DNA from: Pseudomonas sp. GM78
Lineage (GTDB): Bacteria > Pseudomonadota > Gammaproteobacteria > Pseudomonadales > Pseudomonadaceae
DNA: 51,363 nucleotides
Assembly (NCBI RefSeq): GCF_000282475.1
Contig: NZ_AKJF01000196.1
Span: 1 to 51,363, forward strand
Direction of reading: 5' to 3'
Below the pieces are notes generated by a model that saw only the letters and a list, made by a program, of their open reading frames with translations, was not told the DNA's origin and did not search any database. The stretch's first letter is position 1. Each line of letters begins with the position of its first letter. Positions 27,385 through 34,132 of this stretch are shown here, piece by piece. A program made the position numbers and the translations under genes.

Positions 27385-28824
27385 TCAACGATCCGCCACC
27401 TTCAACGATTGGCTCCACCCTCCCCCCAGTGCCTTGTACAACGTCACCTGGTTGATCTCCCGCGCCAATTCCAGCTGCGCCCATTTCTGCTGCGCATCAA
27501 ACAATGACCGCTGCGCATCCATGGTGGAAAAATAGCTGTCCAGCCCCGACTCGAAACGCAGGCGCGACTGGCGGTAGGCTTCCTGATAATCCCCTACCAG
27601 CTTTTTCTGGTACTCGACCTGGGTGAGCATTTCCTGCCGGGCATTCAGGGCATCGGCCGCTTCGCGAAAAGCATTCTGCACCGTGGCTTCATAGGCCGCT
27701 GCCTGGCCGGCGAAGCGGGCATGACTGGCATCCACTTGCGCGCGCCGCGCGCCGCCGTCGATCAAGGGCAACGAGCCGGCCAGCGCCACCGCCCAGAATT
27801 CCGCCGGGCCGGAAAGCAACTGGGAAAATTCCCCGGTCAGGCTGCCCAGTGCCGACGTCAGGGAAAAGGTCGGGAAGTACGCCGTGCGGGCTGCGCCGAT
27901 ATCCGCGTTGGCTGCGCGCAGCTGCGCCTCGGCCGACATGATGTCGGGCCGTCGCTCAACCAGCGCCGACGGCAACCCCGCCGGCACGTCCAGCGTCGCC
28001 AACTGCTCACCCAGCGCGCCGGTCGGCAGCAACCCCACCGGCACCGGTTGCCCCACCAGCACCCGTAGCGCGTTCATGTCCTGCGCCACTTGCATGCGGT
28101 AGGTATTGACCTGCACCGCCGCCGTGTTGGTTTGTGCATCCGCCTGGTGGACGTCGATCCGCGCACTGGAACCGAGGTTATAACTCTTGCGCAACAGCTG
28201 CCCGTAACGGTCCTGGGATTGCCAGGTGGTCTGCGCCAGGTCGAGCAAATGCTGGTTGGCCTTGAGGCTCAACCAGGTGCTGGCGACTTCGCCGATCAGC
28301 GCCAGCCGCGCCGTCTGGTAATCGGCCTCGGACGCTTCGAATCGCGCCCCGGCTGCATTGCGCTGACTGCGGATGCGACCGAACAGGTCCAGCTCGTAGG
28401 AGGTAAAACCCGCCGTTGCCTGATAGGTGTTGGCGATGCTGCCAGCCGTATCGCCGCCTCCCGGTGTGCGCACCAACGGCGGCAACTTGCTGCGACCGGC
28501 GTAAGTGTCGATGCCGATCGTAGGAAACAGCCCGGAACGCGCACTGTCATACCCGGCCCGCGCCTCCTCGACGCTGGCCGCGAACTGCCGCAGGCTGCGG
28601 TTGTTGGCCAGGGCCATGTCGATCAACTGGCGCAGGCGCTCGTCGACCACAAAACCGCGCCAATCCTTATCGAATGCCTGTTTGCCGCTGCAACATTCAC
28701 CGGCGGTGTTCGCCGGCCATTGCTGGTCGATCGGTGCCTCGGGTTTCTCGTAGGTCGGTTCCAGCGAACAACCGCCGAGCAAAAACAAGGTCATGAAACA
28801 GGAAGTGGGCAAGCAACGGTTCAT
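27385..28824 (-). CDS. NodT/OprM-type outer-membrane channel lipoprotein of the polysaccharide operon
   Basis: 479 residues. A lipoprotein signal peptide with lipobox LLGGC puts the lipid on Cys19. The protein has the internal duplication of TolC-like efflux outer-membrane factors: two helical-hairpin and strand repeats (ALANNRSLRQFAASVEEARAGYDSARSGLFPTI; QLRAANADIGAARTAYFPTFSLT) and the conserved SYELDLFGRIRSQRNAA. It should form a trimeric tunnel through the outer membrane. There is no RND pump next to it. Instead it is the last gene of an operon with a fusion protein and a polysaccharide synthase, so it probably exports glycan. It starts 9 bp after the synthase gene. Confidence 0.9.
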   Translation of the reverse strand: MNRCLPTSCFMTLFLLGGCSLEPTYEKPEAPIDQQWPANTAGECCSGKQAFDKDWRGFVVDERLRQLIDMALANNRSLRQFAASVEEARAGYDSARSGLFPTIGIDTYAGRSKLPPLVRTPGGGDTAGSIANTYQATAGFTSYELDLFGRIRSQRNAAGARFEASEADYQTARLALIGEVASTWLSLKANQHLLDLAQTTWQSQDRYGQLLRKSYNLGSSARIDVHQADAQTNTAAVQVNTYRMQVAQDMNALRVLVGQPVPVGLLPTGALGEQLATLDVPAGLPSALVERRPDIMSAEAQLRAANADIGAARTAYFPTFSLTSALGSLTGEFSQLLSGPAEFWAVALAGSLPLIDGGARRAQVDASHARFAGQAAAYEATVQNAFREAADALNARQEMLTQVEYQKKLVGDYQEAYRQSRLRFESGLDSYFSTMDAQRSLFDAQQKWAQLELAREINQVTLYKALGGGWSQSLKVADR

Positions 28825-28833
28825 GGCGCGTAC

Positions 28834-30984
28834 CTAAAGACGTTGGCCGAGCAAAGCTCGCAAGGGGGAAAGAAGCAGCGACCACAGGCCCGACCGCTCG
28901 GCACTGATGTACGGCACAGCCTGTTTACGCGAACGCACAGTGATCGGCCGCCACCGCGGTGGCGCAACGAAAGCCGGCGTCTTGACCAGCTTAGGAGAAC
29001 GCGGTGCCAGGCGCTTTTCACCGAGTAACGAGCGCTGCAGCAAGGTGCCGAAGGCTTGTGCCGGCTCGGCCTTGCTGACGACGTTGATGGTCGCGTCGCT
29101 GAACAACCGCGCGATCAGGCGCCGGCGCAGCTCTTCATCAAGGTCGGCGAAGCGCAGGCCCAACTGGTCCTCACCGTGATTGCGCATGACCTCGACATCG
29201 AGCCAACCGAGCTTGTCGATCCAGATCTGGCCGCACAGCCCCGGCTTGATCGAGGAGGCGAAGGCGCAATTGAGCGATGCGCCACTGAGGGAAATATCCA
29301 CCAGGCGCCCCGCCAGGACCTTGCCGCCAAAACGAAACCCGGTGGGTTTGTCGAATGGAAAGCGCTCTTCGCCATGCAAGCGTGGGCGGTCGACACAAGC
29401 CACCAGGGTCGCCAGGTTGTAGATCAGCGCGACCACCGTCCAGCAGAGGTTGAACAGCATGTTGCCGTCGAACGCGGCCGCGGTGCTGATGGCGATGTAG
29501 GCGCCAAACTGTGAAAGCAGGGTCAGGGCCAGAAAGAACCCGAACAGCTTCCAGTGCACCATGGTTTTCGTACGGTCGAGGCCCTTGGCGGTGACTTTGA
29601 ACGGTCTTCCGAACGGGCGGATCATCGCGCTGGCGATGGTGGCCGTGACCGAAAGAGAGGCCACGATCTGCGTGACCTCGGTAAAGATCGGCAAGGTTCG
29701 CCGGTCCGTCACCCAGGTCCCGTAGCCCCAGAACGCAATCAGGGCCGGCATGCCGAACGCCAGGAAATCCACCGGATTGGCGTAGAACCCGGCGATGCCG
29801 AAGTACCAGTACAGCACCGGCGACACCAGCATCATCAAGATGAAGGGCTTGGAAAACCAGTGCATCAGCCCGTGGATGTAGTGCAGCCGGTCATTGAGCG
29901 TGTAACCGCTGCCGCGCAACGGCCCTTCCTTGAGCAACGCCACCTGGATCGTGCCCAGGCACCAACGCCCACGCTGATTGATGTACTCGGTCAAGCCTTC
30001 GGCAGACAAACCAATGGACAGGCGCTCATTCAACCAGCGGGTGACATAGCCTTTTTGCAACAACCGGTAGGTGGTGTAGATGTCTTCGCACACCGAGCCC
30101 GTAGGAAAACCGCCGACTTCGGTAATCAGATCGCGCCGTACCACGAAGGATGTGCCGACGCAAAACGCCGCATCCCAGCCATCCTTCGCCGGCTGGAACA
30201 CATCGAAGAACACCCGCTGCTCATCCACCCAACAGGCCGACGTGCCGAGGTTGTGCTGGATCGGATCGGGGTTGTAGTAGAACTGCGGCGTCTGCACCAG
30301 GCCGACCCTGGGGTCATCGAACAGCCCCAGGGTGCGCAGGAGGATTGGTTGTTGCGGCGCAAAGTCGGCATCGAGCACCAGAATGTACGGCGCGTTGCTC
30401 AGGGCCGCCGACTGGCGCAGGCCGTTGTTGAGGTTGCCGGCCTTGGCATGGGAATTGTCGGGGCGCCGCGCATATTGCACACCCATTTCGGCGCAGTAGT
30501 CGCGCAACCAGTCGCGGCGGGTGTCGTCGAGCACCCAGATGGTGAAGTTCGGATAGTCGATCGCCTGGGCGGCAATAATGGTTTTTTCGAGGATTTCCAG
30601 GCCTTCGTTGTAGGTGGCGATGAAGATATCCACCGCCGGCACCGCGTTACCCTGCGCTCGCAAACGTCGTTCGCCGGCATCCGCCTCCTTGCGGTGATCC
30701 GTGCGGCAGAGCATCACCACGATGGAAAACAGCGTGTAACCAATCGCCAGCATCTCGAAAAACAGGAAGGTGTAGGCCCAGACCGTGGCGAATCCGGAAT
30801 GGCCGTCGGGCAAGGTGTCGCGAATCCGCCAGGCCGCATAGTTGACCAGCAGCAACGCGGTGACCGCGCCGAAACCGACCCGCGCGGCCCACTGATCGCG
30901 GTGGGTCAGGCAGGTGAACAGAATCACCGCTGCCAGCGTCCAGAAATTGATTTGCAGCAGTTGCAGCGAGTCCAGTGCCTGCAT
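28834..30984 (-). CDS. Cellulose-synthase-like GT2 glycosyltransferase with C-terminal PilZ domain
   Basis: 716 residues, inner membrane. N-terminal TMs lie at about 10-25, 35-50 and 68-93. The GT2 core (about 118-345) has VDIFIATYNEG, VLDDTRRDW, DxD as LDADF (205-207), CED (299-301) and QRGRW (337-341), which mark a processive beta-glycan synthase. TM helices follow to about 530. A PilZ domain (about 535-640) has DISLSGASL (563-568) matching DxSxxG. The upstream arginine motif reads HGEER, with His537 where RxxxR needs its first Arg. The C-terminal 70 residues are basic and not assigned. It lacks a bcsB partner. The ATG is 1 base after the previous stop (TGACATG). The polymer is not identified; cellulose, mixed-linkage or other beta-glucan are all possible. 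Confidence 0.92.
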   Translation of the reverse strand: MQALDSLQLLQINFWTLAAVILFTCLTHRDQWAARVGFGAVTALLLVNYAAWRIRDTLPDGHSGFATVWAYTFLFFEMLAIGYTLFSIVVMLCRTDHRKEADAGERRLRAQGNAVPAVDIFIATYNEGLEILEKTIIAAQAIDYPNFTIWVLDDTRRDWLRDYCAEMGVQYARRPDNSHAKAGNLNNGLRQSAALSNAPYILVLDADFAPQQPILLRTLGLFDDPRVGLVQTPQFYYNPDPIQHNLGTSACWVDEQRVFFDVFQPAKDGWDAAFCVGTSFVVRRDLITEVGGFPTGSVCEDIYTTYRLLQKGYVTRWLNERLSIGLSAEGLTEYINQRGRWCLGTIQVALLKEGPLRGSGYTLNDRLHYIHGLMHWFSKPFILMMLVSPVLYWYFGIAGFYANPVDFLAFGMPALIAFWGYGTWVTDRRTLPIFTEVTQIVASLSVTATIASAMIRPFGRPFKVTAKGLDRTKTMVHWKLFGFFLALTLLSQFGAYIAISTAAAFDGNMLFNLCWTVVALIYNLATLVACVDRPRLHGEERFPFDKPTGFRFGGKVLAGRLVDISLSGASLNCAFASSIKPGLCGQIWIDKLGWLDVEVMRNHGEDQLGLRFADLDEELRRRLIARLFSDATINVVSKAEPAQAFGTLLQRSLLGEKRLAPRSPKLVKTPAFVAPPRWRPITVRSRKQAVPYISAERSGLWSLLLSPLRALLGQRL

Positions 30985-30985
30985 G

Positions 30986-32230
30986 TCAGTCAGCCTCTTG
31001 CGAACCGGTAAAGGGATTGACGCCGGTGGCGGCAATCGCCGCCCATGCCGTGGCGCCCAGGTGAGGCAGGTGGTAGTAGAAAAAATCGTTGGAGACCGAG
31101 TCCGGGCCTATGGCCAGCCCGGTACTGATGCGCGCCGCCGGGGTTGCGAACAGCCAGCCGTTGCCGGCCTGCTGGGCCAGCAGCACGCTCCACAGCGGTT
31201 GCGCCTTGTCACTCAGGCCACTCAAGCGCGCCACCGCAGCGGCCTGGGCGGTGCCCTCGGTCCACAGGCCATCGGGGTCGCGGTTGAAACCGTAACCTTC
31301 GCCGGCACGGTGAGCGCGGTCGATGAAGGCGAAGACCCGCCGCCAGTCCTTGGGTGGCTCATGCAGGGCAATCAAGGGCCAGATCTGCGCATCCAGCCCA
31401 GAGCGCACGCGGTCCGAGGTCTGGCCATCCGCGCCAGTGCCGATCAGGAAGCGCCCTTCCCCGGCGTCCCATTGGCTCGCGACAAACTGCCGGGCAATGT
31501 GCGCCTGCTTTGCCGAATCCTGGTTCGGCGCCACCGCGTCGAGCGCCGACCAGGCAGCGGCGAGGTCGACGTTATGCTCGGTGGATTTCCAGTTCTGCTG
31601 GACCTGTTGGGAAAAGTACCCGTAGTAGCCACCACTGAAACCGGCGGGCGCTTGCCCGTCGTAGGTGTTGTGCTGCGACCAGTGCAGGGCTTTTCGCGCC
31701 GCCTCCAGGTATGACGCCTCGCCGCTCTGGCGAAACGCTTCGAGCAGCGCCAGTGCCGCCCAGGCCTGATTGCCGGTGGCGCTGCTGACTTGATAGGCGT
31801 CCTGGTTCCAGGCGTTGCGCTCGACACTCCAATAGCCCGGCAACTTCATCGACGGCGCAGCCACCGGGCCTGCGGCGTAGGCGTTGCGCAGGCGCCCGTC
31901 CTGATACTCCGGATCATGGCCGGTGGCGAACGCCAACGCATCGGCAATCCGCCGTGCCGACTCGGCCTTGCCGCAGGCAAACAAGGCAATGCTGGCCAAC
32001 GCGTTGTCATAGGTGAACGCCACGCCGCGCAACGCCAGGATCGGCGCAGGCTGGCCCGCGAGCGGTGGATAACTGGCCACCAGGACCGGACCTGCCGGCT
32101 GCGATGTCACGGCCTGATCCAGCGCCGCACAGGTCATTGCCGCCAATTGCGGCCGGGCTTGCTCTGCCAAGGCGGGCACTCCACTGGCGATCAGCATCAC
32201 GCCCGATATTGCGCGCACAATCCTGTTCAT
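30986..32230 (-). CDS. Exported glycosidase-like (alpha/alpha-toroid) protein of the polysaccharide operon
   Basis: 414 residues with a signal peptide (about 1-23, VPALAEQA). The body is a repeated helix-pair pattern rich in aromatic residues (GVAFTYDNALASIALFACGKAESARRIADAL; WAALALLEAFRQSGEASYLEAARKALHW; HNVDLAAAWSALDAVAP; GLWTEGTAQAAAVARLSGL), typical of six-hairpin glycosidases. I cannot assign a GH family. Acidic candidates for catalysis include Asp in TYDNAL, Glu in TEHNVD and Glu in WTEGTAQ. BcsZ holds the equivalent place in cellulose operons, so trimming or editing of the nascent glycan in the periplasm is likely (inference). The ATG overlaps the upstream stop as ATGA. Confidence 0.8.
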   Translation of the reverse strand: MNRIVRAISGVMLIASGVPALAEQARPQLAAMTCAALDQAVTSQPAGPVLVASYPPLAGQPAPILALRGVAFTYDNALASIALFACGKAESARRIADALAFATGHDPEYQDGRLRNAYAAGPVAAPSMKLPGYWSVERNAWNQDAYQVSSATGNQAWAALALLEAFRQSGEASYLEAARKALHWSQHNTYDGQAPAGFSGGYYGYFSQQVQQNWKSTEHNVDLAAAWSALDAVAPNQDSAKQAHIARQFVASQWDAGEGRFLIGTGADGQTSDRVRSGLDAQIWPLIALHEPPKDWRRVFAFIDRAHRAGEGYGFNRDPDGLWTEGTAQAAAVARLSGLSDKAQPLWSVLLAQQAGNGWLFATPAARISTGLAIGPDSVSNDFFYYHLPHLGATAWAAIAATGVNPFTGSQEAD

Positions 32231-33432
32231 GGTCGCGATACCTCGGCGCTGGCCCACAAGCCCGGGTTGCAGGTCATGGCGCGCTGGTTGTCCGTCAGGT
32301 CCGCGGCAAAGGTGCCGACCACATACACCGAATTCTGCTCGGCATAGGGAAACGGCACGCTGTAGGTATTGGCGCGCATGTCCGAAGCGCTGGACAACAA
32401 CTGCACCACACTGGCCTTGAGGGGCTGGTCGAGGCCGCGGATTTTCACGGTCAGCACGCTGTCGCGGTCGATCTTGCTGGCCATGCGCTCGGGGAACACC
32501 GCGATCACATAGCTCTGCGCGCAATCGGTGGCCCGCAGCAAGGTCGAGCCGGCCTGCACCAGCGTGCCCTGGGGCGCCAGCAGTTCCTGGACGGTCCCGG
32601 GCGAATAGGCCACGACGTCATAGCCGGCCATCAACTTGATCCGGTTCTGTTCGGTCGCGATCAGTTGGTCGAGGTTGTCGAGCTCCTGTTGATAGGTCGC
32701 GCGGTTGCGCGCCTGATTCTCCAGGCTGAGCTTGAGCGTGGTCATTTGCGCGCTGAGATCGAACATGCGCAATTGATCGGGGTCGAGGTAGACCTGCTTG
32801 TTGGCGGCACTGACGTCACCGTCGGTGATCCGCAACTGCGAACGCACCGACTCGGCCGCGCCTTGCAACGAAGCCAGCTGCGCTTTCGACGAAGCCACCA
32901 CCGCACCACTGACCGCCCCCTGGACGAACAACTCGAGATTGCGCTCGACCGTTTCCTGGGCATCGATCAAGCGCGCACTGGCAGCACTGTTCTCGGCTTT
33001 CAGGGCTCTTTGCGTGTACAGCTGGCGGGTATGAAACGCGGCCTGGTAGCGCTGGCTGGTTTTCTCCAGCTCCTCGTAGTAACGCTGATCGTGCTCGGCC
33101 TGGCTGGCCGAAGACGACAGCTGTTGCTCCAGGGTCAGGCGTCGGGTTTGCAGGGTCAGCAAGGTTTCCTGGTTCGCTCGCGGGTTTTCCACCACGGCAA
33201 TTTTCTGGCCCTGGGCAAACGTCACACCGGGCTTGACCGCCAGGGAACTCACCACGCCATCGATCGGTGTGGTCAACAGAATCACCGGCGCATTCAGAAT
33301 CGCCCGGGTAGCAGAGGCCGACACCAGCGGCATGAGCAAGGTCGACAGCAACAACCAGACAATAAACCCCAGCACACCCAAACCCACCAGGCGCGGTAAC
33401 AGCGATAACAACTTCGAGCGTTCTTGCGCCAT
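32227..33432 (-). CDS. HlyD/EmrA-type membrane fusion protein, first gene of the polysaccharide operon
   Basis: 401 residues. There is one N-terminal TM (about 13-36, LVGLGVLGFIVWLLLSTLLMPLV) after a short cytosolic tail. A biotinyl-lipoyl half follows (LTTPIDGVVSSLAVKPGVTFAQGQKIAVV), then long coiled-coil arms (about 85-270), the second lipoyl half (VVAYSPGTVQELLAPQGTLVQAGSTLLR) and a beta-barrel end. This is the adaptor that bridges an inner-membrane transporter and a TolC-like channel. Here the partners would be the GT2 synthase and the NodT protein, as for the BgsB/BgsA pair of rhizobial mixed-linkage glucan (analogy from memory). No Alg44-type PilZ domain precedes the TM. GGGAGAG precedes the ATG. 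The three following genes overlap or nearly touch. Confidence 0.88.
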   Translation of the reverse strand: MAQERSKLLSLLPRLVGLGVLGFIVWLLLSTLLMPLVSASATRAILNAPVILLTTPIDGVVSSLAVKPGVTFAQGQKIAVVENPRANQETLLTLQTRRLTLEQQLSSSASQAEHDQRYYEELEKTSQRYQAAFHTRQLYTQRALKAENSAASARLIDAQETVERNLELFVQGAVSGAVVASSKAQLASLQGAAESVRSQLRITDGDVSAANKQVYLDPDQLRMFDLSAQMTTLKLSLENQARNRATYQQELDNLDQLIATEQNRIKLMAGYDVVAYSPGTVQELLAPQGTLVQAGSTLLRATDCAQSYVIAVFPERMASKIDRDSVLTVKIRGLDQPLKASVVQLLSSASDMRANTYSVPFPYAEQNSVYVVGTFAADLTDNQRAMTCNPGLWASAEVSRP

Positions 33433-33582
33433 GTTCGACTCTCCCGATAGACCAACCGCATATCAGCCAGGCAATAACAGACCATGACCGCGAAATACTT
33501 TTGGCAGGGTGAGAACACGCAATTGATCACTGGACGGCAATTAAGCCGACGCTGATTGATATGATTTTTATTGTGATGTGAG

Positions 33583-33606
33583 CGGGAATGGGATTCCCGT
33601 CTTTTT
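33583..33606 (+). terminator. Orphan plus-strand terminator-like hairpin
   Basis: CGGGAAT-GGG-ATTCCCG (33583-33599) followed by TCTTTTT. It points away from the polysaccharide operon, which starts at 33432 on the minus strand. No plus-strand gene lies upstream, so it could end a small or antisense RNA. Confidence 0.5.
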
Positions 33607-33930
33607 GGAGAGTTGCTGTACAGCGCAGTAGCAGGACTTACCAAACCCGTGGCAGAGCGGGTCTGTTATTGGCGACACTAGATTCAGAGAAATGGAGTGT
33701 CAAGCATCCGCTTCGAACAATTAAATGACGTCAAATATGTAACAGCTCTATAATTGGATCCATCAAAACCACCCAGACACAACTGCTCGCCAACTACCTA
33801 TTTTTATTGGGAGTTTTTTATTTTTAATAATTAAATGAACTTTGTATCGAAATCTAAATAACGCTTAACTGCTTACCAGAAAGATTAAATCGATATAAGT
33901 AATCTAAGATCTGCGGTGGGTTCGAGGGCC

Positions 33931-34039
33931 TCTTCGCGGGCAAGCCTCGCTCCTACAGGGATTGGTGTTTGCCGCAAGATTTGGGCACGACACAATCCTG
34001 TAGGAGCAAGCGAGCGGCGTTCCGACTTGCCCGCGAAGG
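33931..34039. repeat. REP pair with an interrupted right arm
   Basis: The left arm CTTCGCGGGCAAGCCTCGCT (from 33931 to 33958) pairs with CCTGTAGGAGC ... GCCCGCGAAG (33998-34039). The right copy carries extra bases (AGCGAGCGGCGTTCCGACTT) in its middle, so the palindrome is imperfect. Confidence 0.75.
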
Positions 34040-34084
34040 GGCCGATTCAGTCAACACCTTGACGTCCAACAAACTATCAAAACA

Positions 34085-34114
34085 AAAACGCCCCGACCAA
34101 GGTCGGGGCGTTTT
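34085..34114 (-). terminator. Rho-independent terminator after gap
   Basis: AAAACGCCCCGACC (34085-34098) pairs with GGTCGGGGCGTTTT (34101-34114). A/T runs at both ends make it able to act in both directions. It lies 19 bp after the gap stop. Confidence 0.95.
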
Positions 34115-34132
34115 CATGTGCAGCTAAAGAGC

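Follow-up and report, generated by a model that had tools for sequence, protein, structure and literature searches.

The window studied here, positions 1 to 51,363 of contig NZ_AKJF01000196.1 of Pseudomonas sp. GM78, carries on its minus strand a compact operon of four genes. In the direction of transcription it encodes a HlyD/EmrA-type periplasmic adaptor of 401 residues (32227..33432, from sequence reading and the HlyD_3 match), an exported sugar-active-enzyme-like protein of 414 residues, called glycosidase-like below (30986..32230, from sequence reading, with a signal peptide recognised by eye), a processive GT2 synthase of 716 residues with a C-terminal PilZ domain (28834..30984, from sequence reading and Pfam), and a NodT-type outer-membrane channel of the TolC superfamily, a presumed lipoprotein of 479 residues (27385..28824, from Pfam and NCBIfam). 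Four genes with overlapping or tight junctions had been claimed in a first-pass annotation of this DNA, and direct re-reading has reproduced every position: the adaptor and glycosidase-like genes overlap in ATGA, a single base separates the glycosidase-like and synthase genes in TGACATG, and nine bases lie between synthase and channel. The synthase start has been taken as the ATG at 30984, the list of open reading frames giving an earlier TTG start at 31035. Judging from the genes, we consider it probable that synthase, adaptor and channel form a machine for the synthesis and export of a linear glycan, which would most likely be a beta-glucan of cellulose-like or mixed-linkage type. The locus is described under none of the titles found in a literature search, which left subscription journals mostly outside.

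Conservation, fusion and joint absence of the genes

Relatives have been collected by scanning 84,980 named species with the glycosidase-like protein, and the best 80 of 449 relatives were kept; because of this query and this selection, distant arrangements and operons without a glycosidase-like gene are under-sampled. The search for the gene order across relatives, a check that the annotation had called for, has recovered the order adaptor-glycosidase-synthase-channel in 66 of the 80 named loci, which belong, grouped by record titles, to Pseudomonas and its kin (35), Rhodanobacteraceae (10), Variovorax (10), and Burkholderiaceae and others (11). Of the remaining 14, 12 have no gene of the set but the glycosidase-like one, one (L111) combines glycosidase and channel genes with a weak adaptor match, and one (L126) is without the channel. 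Within the genus, 12 of 199 genomes, GM78 among them, encode the glycosidase-like protein, and since all 11 other genomes that have it carry the same four genes (two of them fused in L048), the four-gene system is confirmed to be real and conserved beyond chance. A sample of the phylum has yielded the protein in 11 of 398 genomes, again counting GM78 and one weak match with stops; of nine phylum loci, L037 and, in fused form, L038 have all four genes, L039 and L042 have adaptor, glycosidase and synthase but no channel, and the fetched stretches of the other five show only the glycosidase-like gene, L045 among them ending at a contig edge. No synthase above 60% identity has been found in 72,556 plasmid records, the top-ranked reaching 43-45%. 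The four-gene set is common to several proteobacterial groups.

Among the 66 four-gene loci, 12 have synthase and channel joined in one open reading frame, namely all ten Variovorax loci (L105, L113, L114, L115, L117, L119, L120, L123, L125, L136) and Pseudomonas L063 and L087; with L038, outside the 66, there are 13 distinct fused loci altogether, the Pseudomonas fusions resting on one draft genome each and L048 and L063 being taken as the same genome. On the synthase tree described below, which holds seven of the 13, the fused state has to change three times, and three fusions would be the simplest account; repeated fusion of this kind is good evidence that synthase and channel work together. 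All 13 loci keep the channel lipobox and the preceding hydrophobic stretch at the joint. The best Shine-Dalgarno-like match there reaches 3 or 4 of 6 positions in 11 of the 12 named fusions (5 of 6 in L119), and because of these weak matches a through-translated fusion product is to be expected, while a second product may arise from an internal start. The retained lipobox suggests that the fused chain is cut at the joint, possibly as a polyprotein cleaved by LspA. The fusion also poses a question of cell biology, which is how a synthase of the cytoplasmic membrane and an outer-membrane lipoprotein would be sorted from a single chain.

The second line of evidence comes from Rhodanobacteraceae, in which eight of the ten four-gene loci have the operon between phoH and corC. 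At the same site, seven loci (L094, L096, L101, L109, L116, L118, L127) hold only the glycosidase-like gene, and the top matches of the Dyella flava synthase elsewhere in these seven genomes are 28-30% identical, so that no close copy has been found. L111, at a site of the phoH-corC type, has glycosidase and channel; its record is filed as an Eremiobacteraeota metagenome-assembled genome, and its MiaB, PhoH and CorC share 92-94% identity with the Dyella acidiphila proteins. At the phoH-corC site the adaptor, synthase and channel genes are thus missing as a set, and the glycosidase-like protein is able to survive on its own, as it also does in other contexts in five more of the 80 named loci. 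It has been considered that three genes were inserted in Dyella on either side of a glycosidase-like gene already in place, and loss is judged simpler because the four-gene order is identical in other families.

The component proteins and the upstream region

The families named in the annotation have been recovered by profile searches. The adaptor matches HlyD_3 (Pfam, E 1.5e-9), and by eye it has a single N-terminal membrane helix and two lipoyl halves (about residues 55-85 and 271-303) that flank a hairpin of ~185 residues. At residue 164 of the window protein lies, in strict form, the tip motif R-x3-L-x6-S, a pattern that is a sign of docking onto TolC-type channels. Allowing S or T at the last position, it is strictly kept in 53 of 78 adaptor rows (the window, 68 named loci with an adaptor match, three further loci and six plasmid rows) compared with 61 of 1560 segments drawn at random from these proteins. 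The channel matches OEP (Pfam, E 4e-51) and outer_NodT (NCBIfam, 371.5 bits, cut-off 210) and shows a lipobox, LGGC, by eye. A HlyD-type adaptor with the tip motif and a TolC-family channel, encoded in one operon, have the composition of a tripartite exporter.

The synthase has a GT2 domain (E 9e-21) and a PilZ domain (E 2e-9, both Pfam), and it carries LDD, the LDADF, CED and QRGRW motifs already noticed in the first pass, and a gating loop, FKVTAK. In all 66 four-gene loci LDD, LDADF, QRxRW and FxVTxK are present, as is [TC]ED (65 by pattern; the last, L079, reads CEDL). Under the cellulose synthase model CelA (TIGR03030) the protein scores 380 bits, short of the 699.1-bit cut-off, and is therefore not accepted as BcsA; the next best frame in the whole genome scores 112.6 bits, with E. 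coli as positive control. In the PilZ domain of the window the first Arg of RxxxR has become His (HxxxR), while DISLSG retains the second motif, DxSxxG, which is intact in all 34 readable Pseudomonas-group rows. RxxxR itself is found in 0 of these 34, in 8 of 10 Rhodanobacteraceae, in all 10 readable Burkholderiaceae and others, and in 0 of 10 Variovorax, L075 and L131 being unreadable for the PilZ motifs. The GT2 of Pseudomonas sp. TH10 (L075:3807-5968) is split across two overlapping frames, either as a pseudogene or through an assembly error.

The place of the synthase among its relatives has been examined with a tree of 47 GT2 rows: the window, 26 of the 66 named four-gene loci, two further four-gene loci, six alphaproteobacterial cassettes of adaptor, glycosidase-like and synthase genes, one GH8-linked row, five presumed BgsA-type rows and six BcsA rows, with CrdS and XcsA left out. 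Three of the BcsA rows are annotated bcsA followed by BcsB, and the other three (L149, L152, L154) are unannotated and named by similarity; the Sinorhizobium meliloti and Rhizobium etli rows are presumed to be BgsA from replicon and similarity, in R. etli also from an annotated HlyD neighbour (PMC9495663, available portion). The 29 four-gene synthases form one clade (99/98), next to which stand the alphaproteobacterial cassettes (joint group 100/99), with lower support (82/77) for which of them lie closest; the BgsA-type rows branch outside this group. A 100/100 branch splits the six BcsA rows from all others, which, like the missed CelA cut-off, goes against a placement of the GT2 inside true BcsA, something that the annotation had named as part of a refuting outcome. 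L024, the BcsA rows and the two rows from S. meliloti and R. etli carry long-branch warnings. A quicker tree that includes three long outgroup rows has again given the four-gene clade (support 99) and the joint group (100), but in it S. meliloti and R. etli fall together on the BcsA side (86).

For the glycosidase-like protein, no Pfam family exceeds its cut-off and no NCBIfam family matches. The annotation had called it an exported glycosidase-like protein: export is in line with the Sec signal peptide seen by eye, and a resemblance to alpha/alpha-toroid enzymes (GH76, cellobiose 2-epimerase, GH127) has been found that is weak and sub-threshold, so that glycosidase activity is not confirmed by it. 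The best profile match in the PDB, to an alpha-1,6-mannanase (5e-4), runs via short toroid repeats only. E218 and E325 are invariant across all 37 glycosidase-like rows. Assignment to GH8 has been rejected, as none of the 37 members matches GH8 in Pfam and hhalign against one GH8 protein gives 0.1%; for GH8 or DUF3131 the hhalign probability stays at or below 0.2%, in comparisons with single templates that are hence weak tests. A lone glycosidase-like gene in L040 (1981-10302) adjoins an aromatic amino acid lyase-like gene, and a membrane-bound diguanylate cyclase gene lies ~3 kb off.

Upstream of the adaptor gene, the intergenic region (33433..34132, minus strand) is the presumed promoter region. 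A FleQ-box-like match with three mismatches to the P. putida motif (taken from the available part of PMC8125075) lies about 297 bases ahead of the adaptor start codon. In 36 upstream regions, from the window and the 35 Pseudomonas-group loci, matches with at most three mismatches occur in 23, vs 98 of 792 background windows of 720 bases; with at most two mismatches, the counts are 3 of 36 vs 6 of 792. Because the upstream regions are A+T-richer (G+C 0.48 vs 0.61 for the loci) and the consensus has been described as unreliable for P. fluorescens F113 (PMC6120874, accessible text), nothing is drawn from these matches. Promoter and terminator scans remained at chance level.

A candidate glycan exporter and the nature of its polymer

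Gene order, homology, clade, fusions and joint absence have been observed directly, whereas the polymer, the direction of transport, the contacts between the proteins and the enzyme activity are inferences. BcsA is known to push its chain through its own membrane pore, and the conserved motifs suggest that the GT2 here would likewise polymerise its sugar on the cytoplasmic side and push the chain through its own pore. The HlyD-type adaptor would stand in BcsB's place, collect the chain and dock tip-to-tip on the NodT-type channel, which would take the place of BcsC or AlgE. The exported toroid-like protein may trim or edit the chain or clear stalled chains, in the role of BcsZ, CcsZ or XcsC, and the PilZ domain may regulate the synthase, possibly via cyclic di-GMP (c-di-GMP). 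That adaptor, synthase and channel belong to a single machine is supported by the synthase-channel fusions and by the joint absence of all three.

Several observations weigh against parts of this proposal. The strict tip pattern is missing from 25 of the 78 adaptors, most of them from Burkholderiales. The glycosidase-like gene stands alone in 12 of the 80 named loci and in five of the nine loci from other genera. The acceptor site reads FC[VI]GTS vs FFCGS in BcsA, and the DxD motif LDADF vs FD[AC]DH, and because of these departures sugar or linkage may differ from those of cellulose. Control of the synthase by c-di-GMP appears doubtful, since the first PilZ Arg is His in all 34 readable sequences of the 35 in the Pseudomonas group and both PilZ motifs are missing from all ten Variovorax loci; for BgsA, c-di-GMP binding has been reported despite the lack of a PilZ domain (PMC10374906, in the text available). 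With tblastn (E 1e-3), no channel relative has been found in the 7.5-17 kb stretches around any of the six alphaproteobacterial adaptor-glycosidase-synthase cassettes, so that a linked channel would not be needed in these kin.

As to the polymer, plain cellulose would make the operon a proteobacterial counterpart of the Xcs (type IV) system with only its export parts unlike Bcs. The combination of GT2-PilZ, HlyD, presumed hydrolase and TolC-like channel fits the Xcs model, and the CelA score of 380 bits as well as the best PDB relatives, which are cellulose synthases, point the same way; yet the cut-off is missed, the acceptor and DxD motifs are unlike those of BcsA, and the GT2 lies across the 100/100 branch from BcsA, nearer to BgsA-type synthases (in a tree drawn without XcsA rows), and we regard cellulose as rather unlikely. 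A mixed-linkage (1,3;1,4)-beta-glucan, the type of polymer that rhizobial BgsBA produces, is a serious possibility that we nevertheless stop short of expecting. BgsA-type proteins are the nearest characterised relatives compared (about 36-39% identity), have a HlyD-type partner, and have LDADF/FDADF in common with the synthase here; however, the distance is large, glycosidase-like and channel genes have not been found beside the fetched BgsA-type rows, and according to the accessible text of PMC10374906 the plant switch motif is absent from the bacterial enzyme studied and the bacterial linkage motif is unsettled.

It is also conceivable that adaptor and channel are an ordinary efflux or secretion conduit, co-transcribed with the synthase by chance, as NodT-type channels commonly work with drug or metal pumps (going by NCBIfam names). 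This we hold to be very improbable, given that there is no pump gene among the four, that 66 of 80 loci, from several proteobacterial families, have the genes in this order, that synthase and channel are fused with three changes on the tree, and that adaptor, synthase and channel are absent together. Returning to the glycan exporter, we propose tentatively, and with nearly balanced confidence, that the operon represents an exopolysaccharide class of its own, in which a processive GT2 would feed a dedicated type-I-secretion-like conduit encoded in one operon and Variovorax would make a polyprotein with an internal lipobox, separable by LspA. The genes suggest dedicated sugar-polymer export through types of adaptor and channel that usually pump drugs or proteins, and with all parts in one operon, also in cultured Pseudomonas such as P. 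umsongensis DSM 16611 and P. fluorescens FW300-N2E3, the question of glycan export is directly testable.

Comparison with known systems

With Bcs the operon shares the catalytic motifs, the gating loop, the PilZ domain and a presumed hydrolase gene, but adaptor and NodT-type channel replace BcsB and BcsC, the glycosidase-like protein is not GH8, and the GT2 lies outside the BcsA clade at about 27-31% identity. The annotation's description of the operon as without BcsB/BcsC has held for the genome, since profile searches of all 7.29 Mb (235 contigs) have given no match to BcsB (PF03170), the BcsC C-terminal domain (PF05420) or GH8, with E. coli positive in each.

Among the systems compared by sequence, BgsB-BgsA is the nearest characterised one, as the annotation had supposed; BgsA-type relatives make mixed-linkage beta-glucan in Sinorhizobium and Rhizobium (PMC9495663, available portion). 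Both systems encode a HlyD-like adaptor with a processive GT2, and the presumed BgsA rows share 37-39% identity with the synthase here, whereas BgsB-BgsA has two genes only, BgsA is reported to have no PilZ domain (PMC10374906, text available), and the synthase here stands apart from the BgsA-type rows in its own clade. The absence of a linked channel and glycosidase, also supposed, agrees with the BgsA-type rows fetched, and tblastn as above has found no channel relative in six BgsA-type or GH8-kind loci (7.5-17 kb stretches). Bradyrhizobium, Allorhizobium and Agrobacterium pusense likewise have an adaptor and synthase pair. A Pacificitalea plasmid (L147:3530-7899) encodes GH8, a HlyD-type adaptor and a GT2 in a row, so that an endoglucanase-type family there takes the part of the glycosidase-like protein. 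The Pacificitalea synthase clusters with the adaptor-synthase pairs, outside the four-gene clade. Nearer still are the alphaproteobacterial cassettes, in which synthase, glycosidase-like and adaptor genes stand side by side on plasmids of Agrobacterium (pAspH13-3a), Phyllobacterium and Nitrobacter, with identities to the window proteins of 44-48%, 42-44% and 25-27%, respectively; they differ in the Agrobacterium order, with the glycosidase last, and in that PilZ has not been recognised in the two synthases scanned. Separate glycan-like clusters have been seen on plasmids of Nostoc (L146:3503-7963) and Pantoea (L155:2911-7383), where a cellulose-synthase-like GT2 is paired with DUF3131 proteins; the Nostoc cluster additionally encodes a PIG-L deacetylase, and the one cyanobacterial plasmid match examined, H94, is a DUF3131-linked GT2.

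The cyanobacterial cellulose system is described in a review as combining XcsA (GT2-PilZ), XcsB (HlyD-like) and XcsC (endoglucanase) with an unlinked TolC, the xcs genes lying in one operon in Synechococcus elongatus and Nostoc punctiforme (PMC12430437, available text, here and below). Shared with the present operon are a GT2-PilZ synthase, a HlyD-like adaptor, a presumed hydrolase gene, a proposed TolC-like exit and the lack of BcsB. In the published model TolC lies outside the operon, whereas the channel here is operon-encoded, and XcsC is termed an endoglucanase whereas its counterpart here has no sequence family, XcsA having been compared by description only. The annotation went too far in setting its type-I-secretion-like glycan route apart from known systems, as the idea of such an exit is not new and has already been proposed for XcsAB-TolC (PMC12430437). 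The operon is not a Bcs system; in its presumed working principle it is closest to the XcsAB-TolC model, and by descent, among the systems compared, to the alphaproteobacterial cassettes and then to the BgsA-type pairs; what is new here is the operon-encoded channel and the fusion of synthase and channel.

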